Origin: an uncultured bacterium
GTDB lineage: Bacteria > Pseudomonadota > Gammaproteobacteria > Burkholderiales > Burkholderiaceae_E
Assembly: GCA_903866395.1 (NCBI GenBank)
Contig: CAIPNM010000253.1
Location: 1-36,370, forward strand
Reading direction: 5' to 3'
Length of the DNA: 36,370 nucleotides
Made by a program: the position numbers and the translations under genes. The notes under the pieces were generated by a model. The model worked only from the letters and a program-made list of their open reading frames with translations, made no database searches and was not told where the DNA came from. Positions 14,677 to 36,122 of the stretch are shown in pieces. Position 1 is the stretch's first letter. The number at the start of each line of letters is the position of its first letter.

Positions 14677-16139
14677 TGCTAGTCCTCGACCACGATCGTG
14701 CGGGCGGCTACTGGGGCGCTGTCTATGTGTTCACCGCAATCAAGGGACTGCAGGTGGTGATCGACGGCCCGGTGGGTTGCGAGAACCTGCCGGTCACCTC
14801 GGTGCTTCACTACACCGACGCATTACCGCCCCATGAACTGCCCATCGTTGTCACCGGCCTTGCCGAAGAGCAGTTGGGTCGCGAGGGCACCGAAAACGCC
14901 ATGCGGCGGGCTCACGCGGTGCTCGACCCCGACCTGCCCGCTGTGGTGGTCACGGGATCCATCGCTGAAATGATTGGGGGGGGTGTCACGCCCGAGGGCA
15001 CCACCATTCAGCGTTTCCTGCCGCGCACGATCGACGAGGACCAGTGGCAGGCGGCCAACCGAGCCATGCTCTGGCTCTGGTCCGAATATGGCCAGAGAAA
15101 AGTGCCTGAGCCCAAGCCCCGAAAGCCGGGTGAGCGGCCGCTGGTCAATCTCATTGGCCCTTGCTACGGCACCTTCAATATGCCCAGCGATCTGGCGGAA
15201 ATCCGCCGACTCGTTGAAGGCATTGGTGCCGAGGTGAATCTCACCTTTCCGCTGGGCGCACACCTGGCGGATGTCTCCAAGCTTGCGGATGCGCAGGTCA
15301 ACATCTGCATGTACCGCGAGTTTGGCGCGCTCCTCTGCGAAGCCCTTGAGCGGCCCTGGCTGCAGGCACCGATCGGGCTCCACAGCACCACGCGCTTTCT
15401 GCGTGCCCTGGGCGAGCTGTTGGGCCTTGATCCCGAGCCCTTCATCGAGCGCGAGAAGCACACCACCATCAAGCCGGTCTGGGATCTGTGGCGCTCGGTC
15501 ACCCAGGATTTCTTTGGTACCGCCAGTTTCGCCGTGGTGGCAAGCGACACCTACGCACGCGGGCTTCGCAATCTGTTTGAAGTCGAACTCGGATTGCCCT
15601 GTTCGTTCGCCGTGTCGCGTAAGCCTGGCGATAAGACCGACAACGAAGCAATCCGAAAGCTCTGTCACGAGAAAACGCCGCTGGTGATGTTCGGTAGCTA
15701 CAACGAGCGCATGTACCTCGCCGAGAAGGGCGCGCGTGCTACCTACGTGCCCGCCTCGTTCCCGGGTGCCATCATCCGCCGTCATACCGGTACGCCCTTC
15801 ATGGGCTACGCGGGCGCCACTTATCTCGTGCAGGAATTCTGTAACGGCCTGTTTGATGCGCTGTTTCACATCCTGCCGCTCGGCACCGATATGGATCGCG
15901 TTGAGCCCACGCCCACCGGCACGGTTGCTCCCGATGCACGCAGCCTCGACTGGGACGAAGATGCCCGCGAGCGCCTGGCCGAGCGGGTGGCCGACGAGCC
16001 GGTGCTGATACAGATCTCTGTGGCCAAGCGTCTGCGGGACCGCGCTGAGCGCGAAGCCCGCGAGGCTGGCGAAGACCGTGTGACTGCGGCGCGCGTTGAT
16101 CGCGCAGCCGGAGTTACTCGGAAGGCGGTAAGCGTATGA
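14676..16139 (+). CDS. bchZ: Chlorophyllide a reductase subunit Z
   Basis: BchZ is the NifK-like half of the catalytic component of chlorophyllide a oxidoreductase. The 487-residue product begins [20 protein letters not shown], with a cluster-ligand cysteine in [14 protein letters not shown]. The conserved [15 protein letters not shown] and [15 protein letters not shown] motifs follow. The C-terminal tail is charged and helical ([20 protein letters not shown]). It overlaps bchY at its start and a 47-codon frame at its end (ATGA). A run of eight G at 14976-14983 lies inside the gene and does not break the frame. Confidence 0.97.
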
Positions 16140-16279
16140 GTGCTGCCTCCCTCTCCTCGAACAAAGCCTCATTAAAGAGGCGTACCGAACGTCGTGGCAC
16201 GGTGCTGCGGCTGCCTGATCCACGCGGGCCCAGCGTGGAGTTGGCCTTCACGGCCACCTCAATGGAGAACACCCCATGA
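16136..16279 (+). CDS. Possible 47-residue basic peptide between bchZ and pufB
   Basis: This short frame starts with an ATG that overlaps the bchZ stop (ATGA) and ends with a TGA that overlaps the pufB start (ATGA). That gives gap-free translational coupling on both sides. The peptide ([20 protein letters not shown] at the start, ending ATSMENTP) is basic and lacks a membrane span. It occupies the place where many alphaproteobacteria carry pufQ, but it does not look like PufQ. GGAAGGCGG lies upstream of the start. It may be a real small gene, or a leader that carries ribosomes through a structured mRNA region; I cannot decide from one sequence. Confidence 0.4.
16166..16181 (+). other. Small stem-loop after bchZ
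   Basis: GCCTC (16166-16170) and GAGGC (16177-16181) form a five-base-pair stem around the loop ATTAAA. It lies 27 bases after the bchZ stop and has no T-run after it, so it is not a typical terminator. It could mark an mRNA processing point between bch and puf messages. Confidence 0.35.
16220..16256 (+). other. Two tandem mRNA hairpins just upstream of pufB
   Basis: CCACGC (16220-16225) pairs with GCGTGG (16233-16238) around a seven-base loop. Four bases further on, TGGCC (16242-16246) pairs with GGCCA (16252-16256) around TTCAC. The pair ends eight bases before the pufB ribosome-binding site GGAG. Structures at the 5' end of puf message segments are known to influence decay in Rhodobacter, so a 5' stabiliser for LH1 mRNA is plausible here. 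No T-run follows. Confidence 0.5.
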
Positions 16280-16419
16280 GTGGAAAGAGCGTCTCAGGGC
16301 TCACTGACGAGGAAGCCCAGGAGTTTCACACGTACTACATGCAAGGTCTGGTGGGCTTCACGGCAATCGCCGTGATCGCACACATCCTCGTCTGGGCCTG
16401 GCGCCCCTGGTTCCACTGA
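16276..16419 (+). CDS. pufB: LH1 antenna beta polypeptide
   Basis: PufB is the beta chain of the core light-harvesting complex LH1, a single-span protein that binds bacteriochlorophyll a around the reaction centre. The 47-residue product begins [18 protein letters not shown] and contains the conserved H18. The bacteriochlorophyll ligand is H36, in [15 protein letters not shown]. The C-terminal WAWRPW motif is diagnostic for LH beta chains. The ATG at 16276 has GGAG eight bases upstream. Unusually, the next gene is not pufA but a 74-residue membrane protein. Confidence 0.97.
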
Positions 16420-16441: not shown

Positions 16442-16666
16442 ATGACACCACTCAGCAATACATCGGCTCGGCATGAAGCACGAGGCGATTCACTCGCTTA
16501 CCACTTCATCTTTGCGGTCTGCTTCGTCACATTTTTGTGCGTAGCGCTGGTCGCGTCGGTGCTGTTGCTGCCGTGGCGCTCCTGGCTTCCTGGTGCGGAA
16601 GGCAGTGAAACCCTGGTGGGCGGCGTCAGGGGCGCGGTTTACACCCTGATGTCGCATCTCATCTGA
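16442..16666 (+). CDS. Single-span membrane protein inserted between pufB and pufA, faintly PufQ-like
   Basis: This 74-residue protein lies between the LH1 beta and alpha genes, which are normally adjacent. It starts MTPLSNTSARHEARGDSLAY with GGGA upstream. A polar N-terminus of about 18 residues is followed by one long hydrophobic span (about 19-45, HFIFAVCFVTFLCVALVASV). The tail carries Gly/Arg and an amphipathic end (GGVRGAVYTLMSHLI). The size, the aromatic start of the span and the Gly-Arg-Ala tail recall PufQ, which is about 70-80 residues and normally precedes pufB. The resemblance is by eye only. An LH1 accessory chain of another kind is equally possible. It is not an LH alpha or beta chain: the family tryptophan and histidine motifs are absent. 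Confidence 0.75.
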   Translation: MTPLSNTSARHEARGDSLAYHFIFAVCFVTFLCVALVASVLLLPWRSWLPGAEGSETLVGGVRGAVYTLMSHLI

Positions 16667-16680
16667 ACGGAGATTGATCT

Positions 16681-16863
16681 ATGTGGCGCGTTTGGAAACT
16701 GTACGACCCGCTGCGCGCGATGGTTGCGCAAGGCGTTTTCCTCTTTGGGCTGGCAGCAATGATTCACCTCATTCTGCTCAGCACGACCAGCTTCAATTGG
16801 CTCGATGGTATGAGCCAGGCGCAGTACAAGGCCGCTCAGGCCGCGGCTGCCGCCAAGAAGTAG
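16681..16863 (+). CDS. pufA: LH1 antenna alpha polypeptide
   Basis: PufA is the alpha chain of LH1. The 60-residue product starts [20 protein letters not shown], the canonical alpha N-terminus. The bacteriochlorophyll ligand is H29, in [19 protein letters not shown]. The C-terminus is a short Ala/Lys-rich tail. An ACGGAGA ribosome-binding site precedes the ATG. pufB lies 261 bases upstream, beyond the inserted membrane-protein gene, and the hairpin after pufA probably protects the LH1 part of the message. Confidence 0.97.
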
Positions 16864-16880
16864 GCGCAGGAAGAAAGGCA

Positions 16881-16906
16881 GGCGGTCCGGCACTCGCCGG
16901 TCCGCC
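16881..16906 (+). other. Intercistronic hairpin between pufA and pufL
   Basis: GGCGGTCCGGC (16881-16891) pairs with GCCGGTCCGCC (16896-16906) around the four-base loop ACTC, giving an eleven-position stem with one T-T mismatch. No T-run follows. A strong hairpin at this position is a known feature of puf operons; it blocks 3'-5' decay so that LH1 mRNA outlasts the reaction-centre mRNA. Confidence 0.88.
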
Positions 16907-16936
16907 GCCCGAGACGACAGCTGGGAGGGCCCGCAG

Positions 16937-17761
16937 ATGGCGATGTTGAGCTTCGAAAGAAAATATCGAGTGCGTGGAGGCACGCTGCTCGGAGGCGACC
17001 TGTTCGATTTCTGGGTCGGTCCGTTCTACGTGGGGTTCTTTGGAATCACCACGGTGTTTTTCACCTTCGTGGGTACTGCGCTTATTCTTTATGGCGCTGC
17101 CATCGGTGGCACCTGGAATCTCTGGCAGATCAATATCGCGCCGCCTGATCTGAAATACGGATTGGGGCTGGCTCCGCTCAAGGAGGGCGGGCTATGGCAG
17201 ATCATTACGGTCTGTGCGATAGGCGCGTTTGGCTCATGGGCGATGCGCGAAGTTGAAATTTCCCGAAAGCTCGGCATGGGGTATCACGTGCCAGTGGCCT
17301 TCAGTTTCGCCATCTTCGCTTATGTCACGCTGGTGGTGATCCGGCCGATTCTGTTGGGTGCCTGGGGGCACGGCTTTCCCTACGGCATTCTCAGTCACCT
17401 CGACTGGGTCTCCAACGTGGGCTACCAGTATCTGCATTTCCATTACAACCCGGCGCACATGATCGCGGTGTCGCTGTTCTTCACCACTGCGCTTGCGCTT
17501 GCCATGCACGGCGGCCTGATTCTGTCCTCCACCAACCCGGCCAAGGGTGAACTGGTGAAGACGCCCGAGCATGAAGACTCTTTCTTTCGCGACATCATCG
17601 GCTACTCAGTGGGCACGCTCGGCATTCACCGGCTGGGTCTGTTCCTTGCGCTGTCGGCGGTGTTCTTCAGTGCGGTCTGCATCGTAATCAGCGGACCGTT
17701 CTGGACCCGCGGCTGGCCCGAGTGGTGGGGCTGGTGGCTGCGGCTGCCGATCTGGTCCTGA
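16937..17761 (+). CDS. pufL: Photosynthetic reaction centre L subunit
   Basis: PufL is one of the two five-helix core subunits of the type II reaction centre. The 274-residue protein starts [20 protein letters not shown], a typical L start, with GGAGG eight bases upstream. The ligand of the accessory bacteriochlorophyll is H154 (LSHLDW). The special-pair ligand is H174 (NPAHMIAVS). The iron ligands are expected in the later MHGGLIL and GIHRLGL segments. The length is standard for the family. pufM follows 13 bases downstream. Confidence 0.98.
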
Positions 17762-17774
17762 CGGGAGACTCTCA

Positions 17775-18764
17775 ATGAAAACAACACTGTTTCCGGTCCC
17801 GTACTACCAGAACCTGTTCACCAAGGTTCGGGTCGATGCGCCGACGTATCCAGGCGTTCCGCTTGAGCGCGAGCGCGATACCGCCGAGCGCACGGGTGGC
17901 ATTCACGTGCAGGCACTCGCCTGGTTCGGCAATGCTCAGATCGGTCCGATCTATCTGGGTTTTCTGGGCATAGCCGCGCTGATTTTCTTCGTGATCGGCT
18001 TTACCGCTATCGGCTGGAACATGCTGGTGCAGGTGAACTACAGTCCGATCGAATTTGTGAAGCAACTCTTCTGGCTGTCGGTCGACCCGCCATCAGCCAA
18101 ATATGGCCTGCGCCTGCCGCCCATGAATGAAGGTGGCTGGTGGTTGTTCTCAGGCTTCTTCATCACCGTGTCCATTCTGCTCTGGTGGGCTCGGGTCTAT
18201 CGGCGGGCACGCGCACTGGGTCTGGGCACGCACATCGCCTGGGGGTTTGCGGCAGCCATCTGGCTGTTCCTGGTGCTGGGCTTTTTCCGGCCGGTGTTGA
18301 TGGGTTCGTGGTCAGAGGCAGTGCCGTTTGGAATCTTCTCCCATCTCGACTGGACCACGGCGTTCTCGCTTCGCTACGGAAACCTGTTCTACAACCCGTT
18401 CCATATGTTGTCGATCGCCTTCCTGTACGGCTCTGCGCTGTTGTTTGCGATGCATGCGGCCACCATTCTGGCGGTCGGCCGCTACGGTGGCGAGCGCGAG
18501 ATCGAGCAGATTTATGACCGGGGCACGGCAAGCGAACGCGCAGCGCTCTTCTGGCGCTGGACCATGGGCTTTAACGCCACCATGGAGTCGATTCACCGCT
18601 GGGCGTGGTGGTTTGCGGTGCTCACCTGCATCACCGGCGGCATCGGCATCCTGCTCACCGGCACGGTGGTCGACAACTGGTATCTGTGGGCGGTCAAGCA
18701 TGGTGTCGCACCCGCCTATCCCGAGATCTGGGGCCCAGTCCCTGATCCCTCGGTCGCGAAATAA
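17775..18764 (+). CDS. pufM: Photosynthetic reaction centre M subunit
   Basis: PufM pairs with PufL to bind the special pair, bacteriopheophytins, quinones and non-haem iron. The 329-residue product contains [10 protein letters not shown] near the start and [15 protein letters not shown] before the first helix. [15 protein letters not shown] carries the accessory pigment ligand, and [21 protein letters not shown] has the special-pair histidine H210 followed by an iron ligand. ESIHRWAWW supplies another iron ligand. The N-terminus is about eight residues longer than in Rhodobacter. No pufX gene follows; pufC does. Confidence 0.98.
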
Positions 18765-18776
18765 CAGGAGCCCGAC

Positions 18777-19853
18777 ATGGCGTACTTCAGAATCGCCCTG
18801 GTCGCTGCCGCAGGTGTCTTGGCGAGCGCATTGCTCGCGGGCTGCGAGCGCTTGCCCATGGATACCAAGCAGATCGGCTATCGCGGCACCGGCATGGAGA
18901 AGGTCACGAATCCAAGGATTGAAGCGGCCAATGCCTCGCGCCACGAGGCACCAGCCGCGCTTGATCCAGCCGACTCCAGCGGTCCCAAGGCCGCGCAGGT
19001 CTATCAAAACGTTAAAGTGCTGGGTCATCTCAGTGTGGGTGAGTTCACCCGCACCATGATCGCGATGAGCAACTGGGTGGCCCCCGAGCAGGGCTGCGTC
19101 TATTGCCATAACCCGGCAAATTTTGCTGATGACTCGATGCAAACCAAGGTGGTCTCGCGTCGTATGCTGCAGATGACGCAGGAGATCAACGGTAACTGGA
19201 AAAACCACGTTGCCGATACCGGGGTCACCTGCTACACCTGCCACCGCGGTAAGAACGTGCCCGAGTACAAGTGGTTCGCCGATCCACCGGCACCCACCGC
19301 AGGCCGCATGCTCGGTAACGACTTTGGCCAGAACAAAGCAGGCAAGGCCTCGGTCGGTAACGCATCGCTGCCCTACGACCCGTTTACCCCGTATCTGCTG
19401 GGCAAAGACGAGATCCGCGTCACGGCCACCACTGCGCTACCGGTAAACGCTCAGGTGCCGCTCAAGCAAGCGGAAGTCACGCACGGCCTCATGATCCACA
19501 TGTCGGAAGGCTTGGGCGTGGGCTGTGTGCATTGCCACAACACACGAGCGTTCGCCGAGTGGAATCAAAGCCCACCGGCACGCGTTCAGGCCTGGCACGG
19601 CATCCGCATGGTTCGTGATCTGAACAACGTCTTCATGGTGCCGCTCACCCCAGGGCAGCCCAAGGAGCGTTTGGGCCGCACAGGCGATATCGCCAAGATC
19701 AACTGCGCCACCTGCCATCAAGGGGCCAACAAGCCGTTGAACGGCGCGAAGATGCTCACCGCTCACCCGGAGCTTGCGAAGCCACCGGGCGCGACGGTGC
19801 GCACCTCAGCGCTGCAAACGGGCCAACCAACGCCCGACGCGCGGACCCAGTAA
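18777..19853 (+). CDS. pufC: Reaction centre tetrahaem cytochrome c subunit
   Basis: PufC is the periplasmic cytochrome that re-reduces the photo-oxidised special pair. The 358-residue precursor has a lipoprotein signal with lipobox LLAGC and predicted lipidated C23, so it is probably anchored by lipid as in Blastochloris. Four haem-binding CXXCH motifs are present: CVYCH (C107), CYTCH (C152), CVHCH (C250) and CATCH (C310). Methionine ligands are likely in the helices MIAMSNW, MLQMTQ and MIHMSEG. It is the last gene of the puf operon; a terminator lies 193 bases after its stop. Confidence 0.98.
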   Translation: MAYFRIALVAAAGVLASALLAGCERLPMDTKQIGYRGTGMEKVTNPRIEAANASRHEAPAALDPADSSGPKAAQVYQNVKVLGHLSVGEFTRTMIAMSNWVAPEQGCVYCHNPANFADDSMQTKVVSRRMLQMTQEINGNWKNHVADTGVTCYTCHRGKNVPEYKWFADPPAPTAGRMLGNDFGQNKAGKASVGNASLPYDPFTPYLLGKDEIRVTATTALPVNAQVPLKQAEVTHGLMIHMSEGLGVGCVHCHNTRAFAEWNQSPPARVQAWHGIRMVRDLNNVFMVPLTPGQPKERLGRTGDIAKINCATCHQGANKPLNGAKMLTAHPELAKPPGATVRTSALQTGQPTPDARTQ

Positions 19854-21343: not shown

Positions 21344-22780
21344 ATGGCGGGCTTGACCTCAAGTGAACGCGTAAGCACCAGCATGGTTGAACCGACTCCT
21401 TCCGTTGTGTTGCCGCTCACCCGGATGTACGCCGAGTTTGCTGCCAGCATGGCGGGACGCACCCTGCCTGAGGCGGTTCGCCAGGTGGCTATCCTGGGGT
21501 TTACCGACGCATTGGGCGTGATGCTTGCCGGGGCGCGGGAGCCTGCGGTCGCGCGGCTGTCGGACTGGGTGGTCGAGCAGGGCGGGGCGCCCAGGTGCTG
21601 GCTGGTCAGTCGAGCCGATCGCACCCAGGCAGGGCAGGCGGCGCTGGTCAACGCCACTGCTGCGCACGCGCTCGACTACGATGACTTCGCGTTTTCCAAC
21701 CATCCCAGCGCGGTCCTGGTTCCGGCGATCCTGGCAGCATCCGAGAGTGTGGGGGCCAATGGCGCCCGAATGCTGCGGGCGTACGCCGCGGGCTACGAGG
21801 TTTGGGCCGACGCCTTTCTGCGCGAACCTGATCTGTACTACGACAAGGGATGGCATCCCACAGCCGTGCTCGGGCCGCTCGGGGCGGCGGTCGCGGCGGG
21901 CGTCGTCTGGGGCCTGTCAGCGGCGCAGATGTCGGATGCCCTGGCGCTCGCGGCATCGAGTGCTGGCGGCGTGTTCGAAAATTTTGGCACCATGGCCAAA
22001 CCCTGGCATGGTGGCCGTGCCGCGAGCGTGGGCCTCCAGGCCGCAGGGCTTGCGCGCGCGGGTCTTGCGGCCTCGCCCAGCGCGATCGAGGGCGGGCGAG
22101 GTCTGCTGAAAGCGCTCTCGCCTGCGGGCAGGGTCGACCTGGGCACCGCCATGCCAGCTGGCTGGCGCTCAGAAAAGCTCGGCCTCAACATTAAGAAATA
22201 TCCGGTGGTGGGCGCTGCGCAGCGTGGCATCGACGCAGCCCTTGCCCTGCGGGCGGCGCAGGCGCCTGATCCCGACTGCATCACGTCTATCGTGGCCCAC
22301 GTGAGCGTGCGGCATGCTGCGGTCATGCCTTACGCGCTGCCTCAGGACAGTCTGCAGGCCAAGTTCAGCCTGCCCTTTGCGGTGAGTGCGGCGCTCGTTC
22401 ACGGTGCGGTGGGCTTCAGGGAGTTGCGCGACGAAGTGGTCCTCAGCCCGGTCATGCAGCGGCTGATGGCTTGCACACGACTCGTCACCACCGAAGCGTT
22501 TGAGCCAGGATGGCGGGATGCCGCGCCGTTTGATCAGATCTTCGTGCACCTCAGCGATGGCCGGGTACTGGAATCACCGCGGGTGCGGCGTGCTGCGGGG
22601 CACGCAGACACGCCTTTGTCGCCCTCAGCGATTCTGGACAAGTTTCTCGGCTGTACGCGGTATGCCGGGGTTGCCGATGATCGTGCGCTCGCCCTCTACG
22701 AGCAGCTCCAGAAGCTCGATCAAGTTGATCACGTCGGAGCGCTTTGTTTACCCGTGGTGGGCCCGGCTCGGGCCGCCTGA
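21344..22780 (+). CDS. MmgE/PrpD family protein (module A)
   Basis: MmgE/PrpD proteins include 2-methylcitrate dehydratase and other lyases or epimerases acting on carboxylic acids. This one has up to 478 residues. Family features are FTDALGVMLAGAREP near the start, AHALDYDDFAFSNHPSAVLV with the conserved D-Y-D-D and H-P-S, GWHPTAVLGPLGAAVAAG, NFGTMAKPWHGGRAA, and LNIKKYPVVGAAQRGID. The start is unclear: the ATG at 21344 gives the longest frame, but an ATG at 21383 is equally possible and neither has a good ribosome-binding site. It is very similar to the second MmgE/PrpD protein at 33776-35176. Divergence from true PrpD and the absence of prpB or prpC argue against propionate metabolism; the substrate is unknown. 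Confidence 0.9.
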   Translation: MAGLTSSERVSTSMVEPTPSVVLPLTRMYAEFAASMAGRTLPEAVRQVAILGFTDALGVMLAGAREPAVARLSDWVVEQGGAPRCWLVSRADRTQAGQAALVNATAAHALDYDDFAFSNHPSAVLVPAILAASESVGANGARMLRAYAAGYEVWADAFLREPDLYYDKGWHPTAVLGPLGAAVAAGVVWGLSAAQMSDALALAASSAGGVFENFGTMAKPWHGGRAASVGLQAAGLARAGLAASPSAIEGGRGLLKALSPAGRVDLGTAMPAGWRSEKLGLNIKKYPVVGAAQRGIDAALALRAAQAPDPDCITSIVAHVSVRHAAVMPYALPQDSLQAKFSLPFAVSAALVHGAVGFRELRDEVVLSPVMQRLMACTRLVTTEAFEPGWRDAAPFDQIFVHLSDGRVLESPRVRRAAGHADTPLSPSAILDKFLGCTRYAGVADDRALALYEQLQKLDQVDHVGALCLPVVGPARAA

Positions 22781-22798
22781 CTGTTCAGGAGACTGGCT

Positions 22799-24712
22799 AT
22801 GCCCTCCATTCGTGATTTTGTCCGCTATGCGCCTGTGACATCACGGCCACCCATCCAGTGGCCTGGCGGCAAGCGACTTGCAGTCTGGATCGTGCCCAAC
22901 ATCGAGTTCTATGAATACACCCCGCCCCCGGCAATCGGTCGAGAAACATGGGACCGCGTTCCGGTTCATCCCGATGTTCGCGAATATGGATTCCGCGACT
23001 ATGGCAACCGGGTCGGTCTGTGGCGCATGGATGAGGTGCTGCAGCAGTATCCGGTACGGCCCACCGTCTCGCTCAATCTGGCCCTGCTGGATCACTTTCC
23101 CGAGATCGCGTCGCTGATTCGCGAGCGTGGCTGGGACGTGATGAGCCACGGCCTCTACAACACGCGTTTTCTTTACGGCATGGATGAGGCCGCCGAGCGT
23201 GCTTTTTACCGGGACAACATAGACAGCCTCATGCGACATACTGGCATATCGCTCAAAGGCATTCTCACGCCAGCGATCACCAACACCACGCGGACGCCGG
23301 CGCTGATCGCCGAGTCGGGCATGCTCTATCACGCCGACTGGGTGCACGATGATGTGCCGGTACCTATTCGGGTGGAGGGTCACCGGTTGATTTCGCTACC
23401 GTATTCATATGACCTGAACGACGCGCCGCTATGGGACGGGCGGCCATACGGTGGCCGGTATTTTGTGCAGGCCTGTCTCGATGCCTTCGAGCGACTCTAT
23501 GCCGAGAGTGAAAGCGGAGGGCGCGTCTTCTGCATTGCGCTCCACCCCTACCAGATCGGTCAGCCCCACCATATCGGGCATCTTCGCCAGATCCTCGATC
23601 ACATTTGTGCGCGGCCTGGCGTGTGGTTTGCAACCGCAGCCGAGATGGCGCAGCACTATCTGACACACCACTATGCCGAGCATTGGGCGCACGCCGAGGA
23701 GGTGGAAGCGCGGCGGCGTGACCGGGCCTCCGCGCGTCCGGCCGTTGCCATACGCCAGGAATTTGGCCCGCCGCCGCCGTCGGGTCCTTGGCCTGGCGTT
23801 CGTCAACCGGGCTACGATCATCCACATCTCGCCTGGCAGCCGCTACCGGCGCGTGCGCCGCTTCGCTGGCAGGCGCCAGGCCAGCTTGCGGTGGTGCCGC
23901 TTCTGATCCTGGAGGCCTACGAGGATCCGCTGCCGGCCGACTGGCCTCAGCTTCGTAGCGTGGGCGGCGGGCTGATTCGGGACTTTCCCAATATTTCCAG
24001 GGTGTCAACGCGTGAGTACGGGCACCGGGTTGGCATTTTCCGTCTGCTTGAGGCCCTCAGGGTACGGGGCATTCGTCCCACTGTGGCGATTGATGCGCTC
24101 AGCGCCGAGCTGTACCCCGATCTGGTGGATCGCCTTCAGGCCGACGGCGCCGAGTTCATCGCGCACGGGCTCGCGATTACGCGACCGCAATCGAGCAAGA
24201 TGAGCGTGTCGGCGGAGCGGGCTTACATCGCCGAGACGCTCGCGCGGCTTCGAGCCTGCGCCATTGAACCGCGTGGCTGGTTCAGTCCCGACTACGGCGA
24301 ATCGACGGTGACTCCGCAGCTGATTGACGAGCAGGGGTTGTCTTATCTCAGCGACTGGGCCAACGACGAGCAGCCGTACGAAATGAATACGCCCGGGCGA
24401 TTGATTGCGACACCGCTATGGGCGGATTTTGATGACCAGACCGTGCTGATCAACCGAATGTGCAATCTCGATATGTTCGAAGATCACTTCAACAAGGCGC
24501 TCACGCAGCTCGATCGTGATGCGCGTCGGTCGGCGCGTCTCTTTCACTTCTGTGTGCGACCGTGGGTGATGGGGGCGCCACTTCGAATTGCCAGTTTCGA
24601 GCGGGTGCTGGATCATGCGCTGAGTCTTGAAAATGTATGGACCCCGCGCCTGGGTGAGGTGGTTGATGCGACCCGTACCGCCTGGGCTTCCCTTCTTATC
24701 CGCCATGATTGA
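22799..24712 (+). CDS. Fused two-domain PuuE-like polysaccharide deacetylase family protein
   Basis: This 637-residue protein contains two carbohydrate-esterase-4-like domains. The N-terminal one (about 1-300) has the PuuE-like pattern WPGGKRLAVWIVPNIEFYEY, FRDYGNRVGLWRMDEVL, MSHGLYNTRFLYGMD and ALHPYQIGQPHHI. A Pro/Arg-rich linker (about 300-337) follows. The second domain (about 338-637) repeats the order: LAVVPLLILEAYEDP, REYGHRVGIFRLLEAL, FIAHGLAITRPQSSKM, FCVRPWVMGAPLRI. The usual metal-binding aspartate and two histidines of chitin deacetylases are not conserved in the classic form. PuuE relatives hydrolyse allantoin-like cyclic amides. The start has CAGGAG upstream, 18 bases after the MmgE/PrpD stop. 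It overlaps metN by eight bases. In module B the two domains are separate genes. Confidence 0.88.
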   Translation: MPSIRDFVRYAPVTSRPPIQWPGGKRLAVWIVPNIEFYEYTPPPAIGRETWDRVPVHPDVREYGFRDYGNRVGLWRMDEVLQQYPVRPTVSLNLALLDHFPEIASLIRERGWDVMSHGLYNTRFLYGMDEAAERAFYRDNIDSLMRHTGISLKGILTPAITNTTRTPALIAESGMLYHADWVHDDVPVPIRVEGHRLISLPYSYDLNDAPLWDGRPYGGRYFVQACLDAFERLYAESESGGRVFCIALHPYQIGQPHHIGHLRQILDHICARPGVWFATAAEMAQHYLTHHYAEHWAHAEEVEARRRDRASARPAVAIRQEFGPPPPSGPWPGVRQPGYDHPHLAWQPLPARAPLRWQAPGQLAVVPLLILEAYEDPLPADWPQLRSVGGGLIRDFPNISRVSTREYGHRVGIFRLLEALRVRGIRPTVAIDALSAELYPDLVDRLQADGAEFIAHGLAITRPQSSKMSVSAERAYIAETLARLRACAIEPRGWFSPDYGESTVTPQLIDEQGLSYLSDWANDEQPYEMNTPGRLIATPLWADFDDQTVLINRMCNLDMFEDHFNKALTQLDRDARRSARLFHFCVRPWVMGAPLRIASFERVLDHALSLENVWTPRLGEVVDATRTAWASLLIRHD

Positions 24713-33704: not shown

Positions 33705-33775
33705 GATCATTGAGATTTAGCTGCCGGGCCGTGGCGAGCCGCGCGCAGGGCAGCGGAGCTAACGGGAGAATCCTC

Positions 33776-35176
33776 ATGGCAGGACCGACGGTAGCGGCTG
33801 CGGGCGATGACTGCGCCCCCCTCACCGAGCAGATCGCGCGGTATGCCTGCGAAATGACGGCTCGACAGCCGTCGGCGCGCAGTCTGGAGATTGTTCGGCT
33901 GGGCTTTACCGACGCCGTGGCAGTGATGTTTGCGGGCCTGGACGAGCCCGTTACCCGGGTGGTGCAGCGCCTGGTCAGGCAGGATCCTGGCTCGCCTCGG
34001 GTCGCGCGGCTCCTGCTTACGCGCGAACGCGTTGGCGCCCCCCAGGCGGCACTGGTCAACGCGGTTGCCGCCCACGCAACCGACTGGGACGACTACGCCT
34101 ACTCCAATCACCCGAGCGCGGTATTGGTTCCCACACTTCTCGCGGTCGGTGACGCAACCGGTGCGACGGGTATGCGGCTTGCATCTGCTTATGTGGCGGG
34201 CTATGAGGTCTGGGGCAATCTGATGCGGCGCGAGCCAGATCATCTGCACAGCAAAGGCTGGCATCCGACCGCGGTCCTGGGGCCGGTGGCGGCAGCGGTG
34301 GCGGCTGGTGTGGTTCTCGGCTTGGCCCCGCGAGCCATGCGTGATGCGATCTCGCTCAGCGCCTCGTTCGCGGGCGGCGTCATGGCGAACTTCGGCACCA
34401 TGACCAAGCCCCTTCATGCGGGTCGGGCAGCGCAGTCGGGCATTCAGGCCGCGCTCTGGGCACAGGGCGGGCTTGAGGCGGGTGCGGTCACACTGGAAAG
34501 TCCGGTTGGCCTGATGCGCGCGCTATCGCCCGGGGGCCGGGTTGACCTCAAGACGCCATTCCCAGATGCTGCGGCGCCGGCGCTCATCGAGACGCTGGGG
34601 CTCAACATCAAAAAATATCCCACGGTGGGGGCCTCGCAGCGAATCATCGATTCCATGCTGTTTTATCTCGCCCGCCAGCCAATTGATGCCGATCTGGTGG
34701 TCGAGGCGATCCCCCGGGTCAGCGAAAAATTCGCTTCAGTGATGCCGTTCCATGCACCGCGAACCGCGCTTGAGGCGAAGTTCAGTCTGGAGTTTGTTGT
34801 GGCGGCCAGCCTGCTTCGAGGCAAAGTGGGCCTTGCCGAACTGAGCGATGATTTTGTGGCGAGCGGGGCGGTTCAGTCACTGATGCGCCGTGTACGTATC
34901 GAACGTACCGCAGAGTCTGATCCTGGTTATCCCAATGCCGCGCCGGTGGATTATGTTCGGTTGCGGCTCAGCGATGGCCGCGAACTACGAACCGATGAAA
35001 TCCATCGCGCAACCGGCCATGCCGATCTTCCCCTGGGGCGCGAGCAGATCGCGGCAAAATTTGCCGAGTGTGCGGCTGCTGCATCAATCAGCGAGGGCGT
35101 CGCGACGCGCCTCTTCGACGCCCTGCAGACCATTGATCGTTGGCGGGGTACCGAAGACCTGCCCGTTCTTGCATGA
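33776..35176 (+). CDS. MmgE/PrpD family protein (module B)
   Basis: This 466-residue MmgE/PrpD protein is a close relative of the one at 21344-22780. Shared runs include QAALVNA-AAHA, SNHPSAVLVP, GWHPTAVLGP, NFGTM-KP and LNIKKYP-VGA-QR. By eye about half the residues match across the central region. The start is the ATG at 33776 (MAGPTVAAAGDDCAPLTEQI), with GGGAG seven bases upstream. An in-frame start at 33710 lacks support. It is followed by two PuuE-like deacetylase genes, whereas the module A copy is followed by the fused form. The substrate is unknown. Confidence 0.92.
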   Translation: MAGPTVAAAGDDCAPLTEQIARYACEMTARQPSARSLEIVRLGFTDAVAVMFAGLDEPVTRVVQRLVRQDPGSPRVARLLLTRERVGAPQAALVNAVAAHATDWDDYAYSNHPSAVLVPTLLAVGDATGATGMRLASAYVAGYEVWGNLMRREPDHLHSKGWHPTAVLGPVAAAVAAGVVLGLAPRAMRDAISLSASFAGGVMANFGTMTKPLHAGRAAQSGIQAALWAQGGLEAGAVTLESPVGLMRALSPGGRVDLKTPFPDAAAPALIETLGLNIKKYPTVGASQRIIDSMLFYLARQPIDADLVVEAIPRVSEKFASVMPFHAPRTALEAKFSLEFVVAASLLRGKVGLAELSDDFVASGAVQSLMRRVRIERTAESDPGYPNAAPVDYVRLRLSDGRELRTDEIHRATGHADLPLGREQIAAKFAECAAAASISEGVATRLFDALQTIDRWRGTEDLPVLA

Positions 35177-35219
35177 CGCCTGCCAAACTTTCCCTTACGC
35201 CACTGGGAGCCGCCTACTC

Positions 35220-36122
35220 ATGAATGAAGACCCGCAGCTCTATCCCTATCTGCCCAGCATCGCGCGGCCGAAAATCAGCTGGCCGGGGGGCGCACGACTG
35301 GCCGTCTGGGTCGCGCCCAACATCGAACACTATGAATACGATCCACCGCCCAGTCCGGTTCGAAGCCCCACGCCACGTCCCGCGCCCGACATCAACTGGC
35401 TCACGCTTCGAGACTACGGCAATCGCGCTGGTGTCTGGCGAATGATGGAGGTGATGGATCGATATGGCGTGCGGGGTAGTGTCTCGCTCAACGTGGGCGT
35501 GTGCGATCACTATCCCGAGATCATCGAGGCCTGCGTCAAGCGTGGCTGGGAGTTGTTCTCACATGGTGTCTACAACACGCGCTATCTCTACGGCATGGAT
35601 ACCGATCAGGAACGCGAACTGATCGAAGACGTGAAGGCCACCATTTACCGCGCCTCCGGGCAGCCCTTGTCGGGATGGCTCTCGCCCGCGCTGTCCAACA
35701 CCGTGGACACCATGGATCTGCTGGCTGACGCCGGTGTGCTCTATACCTGCGACCTGATGCATGACGATCAGCCGCTTCCCGTCAAGGTCAAGTCAGATCA
35801 CCGCCTGATCAGCATGCCTTATTCGCTCGAGGTCAATGACTATACCTGCCTGGCGCTCAAGCGGATGACGCCACGCCGCTATACCGAGACCATCAAGGCG
35901 CAGTTCGATCAGCTTTGGGAGGAGGGTGCGGACAATCCGCAGGTGATGTGTCTGCCGCTCCATCCGTGGCTCATCGGACTGCCGCATCGATTGCGTGAAT
36001 TCGACGAGGCGCTGCGCTACATCACCCGTCGCGACAAGGTATGGCTTGCAACCGGTCGTGAAATTGCGCAGTGGTACCTCGCCAATCACTATGACCCGGT
36101 TGCGAGCGCGCTTGGCGCATAG
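35220..36122 (+). CDS. PuuE-like polysaccharide deacetylase family protein (single domain)
   Basis: This 300-residue protein corresponds to the N-terminal domain of the fused protein at 22799-24712. Matching motifs are WPGGARLAVWVAPNIEHYEY, LRDYGNRAGVWRMMEVMDRY, FSHGVYNTRYLYGMD, WLSPALSNT and LPLHPWLIGLPHRL. The frame starts at ATG 35220 (MNEDPQLYPYLPSIARP) with GGGAG about ten bases upstream. PuuE relatives are allantoinases of the carbohydrate-esterase-4 fold; whether this copy acts on a ureide, another cyclic amide or a sugar derivative is not shown. The next gene begins 12 bases downstream. Confidence 0.9.
   Translation: MNEDPQLYPYLPSIARPKISWPGGARLAVWVAPNIEHYEYDPPPSPVRSPTPRPAPDINWLTLRDYGNRAGVWRMMEVMDRYGVRGSVSLNVGVCDHYPEIIEACVKRGWELFSHGVYNTRYLYGMDTDQERELIEDVKATIYRASGQPLSGWLSPALSNTVDTMDLLADAGVLYTCDLMHDDQPLPVKVKSDHRLISMPYSLEVNDYTCLALKRMTPRRYTETIKAQFDQLWEEGADNPQVMCLPLHPWLIGLPHRLREFDEALRYITRRDKVWLATGREIAQWYLANHYDPVASALGA

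Follow-up and report, generated by a model that had tools for sequence, protein, structure and literature searches.

The photosynthesis operon on the stretch of Burkholderiales DNA analysed here (36,370 nucleotides, hereafter the window) raises the question of what the small gene lying between its two antenna genes encodes, and what the product might do in the light-harvesting apparatus. The genes are arranged on one strand in the order bchX-Y-Z-pufB-ORF74-pufA-L-M-C. The identities of pufB (16276–16419, +), which encodes an LH1 beta chain of 47 aa with a short C-terminus, and pufA (16681–16863, +), which encodes the 60-aa LH1 alpha chain, are certain, both passing their NCBIfam cut-offs (85.3 vs. 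61 bits and 65.3 vs. 35 bits, respectively). Downstream are pufL (16937–17761, +), pufM (17775–18764, +; named from sequence and position) and pufC for the tetraheme cytochrome subunit (18777–19853, +; named from its CxxCH motifs and position). The first-pass annotation had described a 74-residue single-span gene between pufB and pufA, and we confirmed this open reading frame, ORF74, as 74 codons running from ATG to TGA at 16442–16666 (+), with one hydrophobic span in its product. The ribosome-binding site of its own that had also been attributed to it is well supported in the family, in which 89% of the members have an upstream Shine-Dalgarno match of at least 4 nt, compared with 30% of shuffled upstream sequences, but is weak in the window, where GGA/GGGA precedes ORF74 whereas pufB and pufA have GGAG.

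The two antenna genes had been expected to be neighbours almost without exception, but in Burkholderiales an insert between them is the usual state. A sample of 399 genomes from across the order included 47 with a puf antenna gene by our reading; about 39 of these phototrophs carry ORF74, five have a single long PufB in its place and three have a PufQ-type gene together with a short PufB. Convincing relatives were found in many of 101 related genomes searched, and a scan of genome contigs gave 191 coding stretches related to ORF74; the 80 that were retrieved include those of Rubrivivax gelatinosus, Rvi. benzoatilyticus, several Roseateles, Piscinibacter and Ideonella, as well as small-genome freshwater and marine lineages, while plasmid records yielded no ORF74. 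Homologues in related puf operons, on whose existence the earlier proposal had been made to depend, are thus present in more than 110 sampled loci (R. gelatinosus included) with the same place, size and frame, and essentially every one of these loci has the order bchZ-pufB-ORF74-pufA-pufL. The start codon is ATG in 115 of 116 sequences and the length is 74 codons in 87 of the 116. Judging from substitution rates, the gene is under purifying selection, with dN/dS below 1 (median 0.51; 0.09–0.28 within the genus), although this is about threefold the value of its neighbours (0.16 for PufB and 0.15 for pufA). Because place, size and frame are kept in so many loci, the start is conserved and dN/dS is below 1, ORF74 is not a chance open reading frame. 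A PufL tree, poorly resolved and with the operon types mixed, neither places the origin of ORF74 nor separates transfer from loss. Three contigs titled Bordetella parapertussis (L031, L037 and L084) also carry puf operons and match metagenome-assembled genomes of freshwater Burkholderiales; that species label looks wrong.

No named family in Pfam or NCBIfam was recovered above cut-off for ORF74. In the first scans, an antenna protein was hinted at only by an LHC/PufB match below threshold, which covers residues 21–49, and the LH1 beta models scored 9.3 bits against a cut-off of 23 (PF00556) and 14.1 bits against 61 (NF040862). Compared profile to profile, ORF74 and PufB aligned with E-values of 1.2e-19 for a set of mostly short PufBs and 1.5e-20 for long PufBs (hhalign), and the homology covers the membrane span and the WRxW turn of ORF74. 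Since two single-span proteins can resemble each other by composition, a shuffle control was run on the long-PufB pair, with columns permuted separately inside and outside the span so that the membrane pattern was kept; the real pairs with PufB scored 96–100, and the 100 column shuffles 24 at most. In a search of the PDB sequences with the ORF74 profile, all 42 matches were antenna chains, essentially LH1 or LH2 beta (best E = 2.2e-15), a deeper profile matched beta-type antenna chains only (best E = 8e-17), and nothing but antenna chains appeared among all PDB sequences up to an E-value of 10. The best-scoring matches are all LH1 beta chains, and the closest of these are long-tail forms (8z81_B, 7xxf_B from Rhodopila globiformis, and 9m8m_B), and neither of the two profile searches found a PDB chain that is itself an ORF74. 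In a tree of 117 sequences, the ORF74s grouped in a single clade (100/94), which lies with PufB; when LH2 beta (PucB) was added as a root, PufB was no longer one group.

What ORF74 shares with LH1 beta is the single span, the WRxW(L/F)P motif, the GAEG-containing tail, the operon and the profile homology, and what it lacks, besides scores above the family cut-offs, are the histidine that ligates bacteriochlorophyll (BChl) and the SGLxxxEAxEFH motif at the N-terminus of PufB. In the window, His36 of PufB (codon at 16381–16383, +) corresponds to Ser39 of ORF74 (16556–16558, +), and at this position histidine is found in 121 of 121 PufBs but in none of 100 ORF74s, which have Gln (76), Thr (7), Ser (6) or other residues; the glutamine present in 76% might still be able to hold a chlorophyll. 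The WRxW motif is kept as part of WRSWLPGAEG (16574–16603, +), which has counterparts in the WRPW of PufB and in long-PufB tails and in which W45, R46 and W48 are invariant and P50–E53 near-invariant across the family. An AlphaFold2 model, of low confidence overall (pLDDT 66), places a transmembrane helix at residues 17–40 (16490–16561, +; pLDDT 77–80 for this block) and a mildly amphipathic C-terminal helix at residues 58–73 (16613–16660, +); Foldseek found no structural match with this model, and the charges flanking the span do not decide between topologies. Taken together, the profile, motif and ligand comparisons make it very probable that ORF74 is a diverged homologue of LH1 beta (PufB) that lacks the pigment ligand.

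The stretch modelled as the C-terminal helix is the tail that the neighbouring PufB is missing, and the two proteins are complementary in this respect throughout the survey. PufB ends no more than three residues past WRPW in 91 of 91 non-redundant loci with ORF74, tails of 21–33 residues after WRPW occur solely in loci without it, and the Burkholderiales that have neither ORF74 nor PufQ have a long PufB. The tail of ORF74 itself has about 25 residues, with 41% identity to the tails of Burkholderiales (beta-lineage) PufBs, 25% to those of other PufBs and 16% to those of PufQ-type proteins. This pattern points to the division of a long PufB into two copies, one short and pigment-binding, the other without pigment and bearing the tail; a tandem duplication of pufB followed by divergence of one copy into ORF74 would amount to subfunctionalisation, which would be the simplest account of the tails. 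The direction may also have been the opposite, with a later fusion in the long-PufB lineages instead of a duplication, and part of the complementarity could come from the shared ancestry of Burkholderiales puf operons. A divergent ORF74 at locus L127 (1910–2209), whose contig ends just after it, has the C-terminus AANSVIPLMFM, which is like the tails of long PufBs and PufQ; it is possibly an intermediate form.

As to function, we lean towards ORF74 being a structural, pigment-free, beta-type subunit of the RC-LH1 complex. ORF74 would have kept the beta-type span and the WRxW turn on the periplasmic side without the BChl histidine, and as the ligand is lost, it should insert beside LH1 beta and alpha without that pigment. 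Occupying a place between the beta chains, or in place of some of them, with its turn and tail at the periplasmic face, it might stabilise the LH1 ring or leave a break in it for quinone exchange. In Roseateles depolymerans, the major puf transcript, of 1 kb, carries ORF74 together with pufB and pufA, and no other loci responded to carbon starvation as strongly as these three, which were induced (PMC10037100), a behaviour that fits a structural component; being on the pufB-pufA messenger, ORF74 is expected at antenna levels. The first-pass annotation had proposed a new LH1 assembly or ring-shaping subunit made in step with the antenna, a proposal that gains support from the LH1-beta homology, the loss of the ligand, the tail complementarity and this co-transcription, and from such evidence we infer the function, that is, a pigment-free state, the N-in/C-out topology of a beta chain, membership of RC-LH1 and an effect on the ring. 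By analogy, ORF74 may work like PufX, protein W or the gamma and gamma-like subunits, which lack pigment, cross the membrane once and give the LH1 ring its shape or act as its gate (PMC10214105; PMC9640540), although it differs from them in its LH1-beta derivation, in being encoded inside pufBA and in having no sequence match to them; the PufX model, in particular, gave no match to ORF74 in Pfam-A at E ≤ 10. On the other hand, a dN/dS of this size denotes less constraint than expected of a tightly packed ring subunit, and a PufQ-like regulator or assembly factor would give the same sequence picture.

The main competing explanation sees in ORF74 the Burkholderiales equivalent of PufQ, either moved from its usual place or sister to it, which would steer tetrapyrrole flux toward bacteriochlorophyll, possibly by binding ferrochelatase, instead of being a part of the ring. 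PufQ of Rhodobacter (PF05398) is likewise a protein of about 74 aa with one span and no BChl histidine, encoded in the puf operon. The first-pass annotation had also suggested a displaced PufQ, which on balance is disfavoured. The Pfam model has no match to ORF74 or to 14 of its relatives even at E ≤ 10, and PufQ-type proteins form one clade (100/99) from which ORF74 is excluded in the tree of 117 sequences; nevertheless, ORF74 is remotely homologous to the proteins found in the PufQ position (hhalign E = 8.3e-12, score 60 vs. a null maximum of 24), nearly all of which also lack the histidine ligand, and a joint ORF74 and PufQ group was not rejected in an AU test with LH2 beta added (p = 0.59, from only 74 columns). 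The two genes do not occur in one operon at any locus surveyed, and a search of ORF74-bearing genomes turned up no other PufQ-like gene, but this mutual exclusion may reflect phylogeny, since many phototrophs carry neither. ORF74 does not occupy the place of PufQ, the bchZ-pufB interval, in which a family of the same order (f22) retains an ordinary PufQ-type gene, and it is closer to PufB not only in the tail but also in the span (33–40% identity vs. 26% to PufQ), while it shows little of the basic N-terminus seen in PufQ (1.9 Lys and Arg residues vs. 3.9). For these reasons we regard a PufQ counterpart as unlikely. A comparison of ferrochelatase N-termini, based on the residue test of the PufQ paper and on a set to which the window's own ferrochelatase does not belong, showed that the motif tracks the alphaproteobacterial lineage and not the presence of PufQ.

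Less probable still is a transient role in LH1 assembly, after which ORF74 would no longer be present in the mature complex; as a mimic of beta that carries no pigment it might, for example, seed or space the assembly of alpha and beta. Such a role would suit a pigment-free, single-span protein that resembles beta, is produced from the antenna transcript (PMC10037100) and evolves faster than the antenna chains. Factors of this kind, however, are as a rule required in low quantity, and ORF74 is on the most abundant puf transcript; its complementarity with the tail of PufB also suggests a position next to beta. A functionless pufB duplicate in decay could likewise be read from the lost ligand and a dN/dS above that of the neighbours, yet a frame that is intact at over 110 loci from several families, the conservation of W45, R46, W48 and P50–E53 as well as of the start and the Shine-Dalgarno sequence, and a dN/dS below 1 make this extremely improbable.

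The proteins in the PufQ position also bear on the ancestry of PufQ itself. Among 398 genomes of the phylum, PF05398 matched strongly in a single family only, apparently Rhodobacteraceae, but unnamed small proteins occupy the same place (bchZ-X-pufB) in alphaproteobacteria, gammaproteobacteria and, within Burkholderiales, family f22; the Pfam model misses these proteins (loci L133, L132, L183, L118 and L240 among them), and the one in Thiodictyon syntrophicum is annotated as hypothetical only. They link to Rhodobacter PufQ with E = 8e-7 and to LH1 beta with E = 3e-17 (hhalign) and E = 4e-11 (PDB profile search), and since they bridge the two, PufQ looks like a remote relative of LH1 beta. One of them, G471 at locus L132 (1132–1332), differs from the rest in still having a histidine close to where LH1 beta has its ligand (FAHFMPKKWRGW). 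A broader reading, which we offer tentatively and hold to be rather doubtful as a whole, is that in purple bacteria LH1 beta repeatedly gave rise to pigment-free helpers, once to PufQ, encoded upstream of pufB, and once to ORF74, encoded between pufB and pufA, the latter being an integral RC-LH1 subunit of Burkholderiales that forms a break or a cap in the ring and gates the exchange of quinones; if so, the problem solved elsewhere by PufX and protein W would have been answered from within the antenna itself.

ORF74 had already been listed by that name, without a function, in Roseateles depolymerans (PMC10037100). The gene of strain 61A (RD2015_RS05155) has the same place, name and length as that of the window, and neither homology nor function is given for it in the sections of that report considered here. 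In the open-licence papers searched we found no account of the homology of ORF74 to LH1 beta, the loss of the ligand, the conservation across the order, the tail complementarity or an LH1-beta ancestry of PufQ. No solved RC-LH1 structure contains ORF74, even though it is encoded in a model species, R. gelatinosus, and in many freshwater Burkholderiales. If ORF74 is a ring subunit, the core complexes of these bacteria differ from every one solved to date, and a light-harvesting chain would have lost its pigment and become a scaffold or a gate; the ancestry of PufQ, which has been unclear, would in turn gain a sequence-based origin.

The bchZ-pufB interval of the window has an element of another kind, a conserved structured RNA leader directly upstream of pufB (16192–16275, +), with three stems and compensating changes. 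Its 20 consensus pairs were derived from 18 loci, 10 of the 20 show double-sided compensating changes, and Rfam has no match to it. As a candidate for a displaced PufQ, ORF47 (16136–16279), which overlaps bchZ and pufB at their ends, was discarded, as it has no hydrophobic span, its frame is lost in near relatives and the stretch is that of the RNA leader. Similarly, a stem-loop between pufA and pufL (16877–16909, +) was dismissed as a special element, being no stronger than shuffled sequence (z = −0.77). Farther along the window, two similar gene pairs (21344–24712 and 33710–36122) flank transporter genes, and by eye each consists of a gene for an MmgE/PrpD-like protein followed by one for a polysaccharide-deacetylase-like protein.
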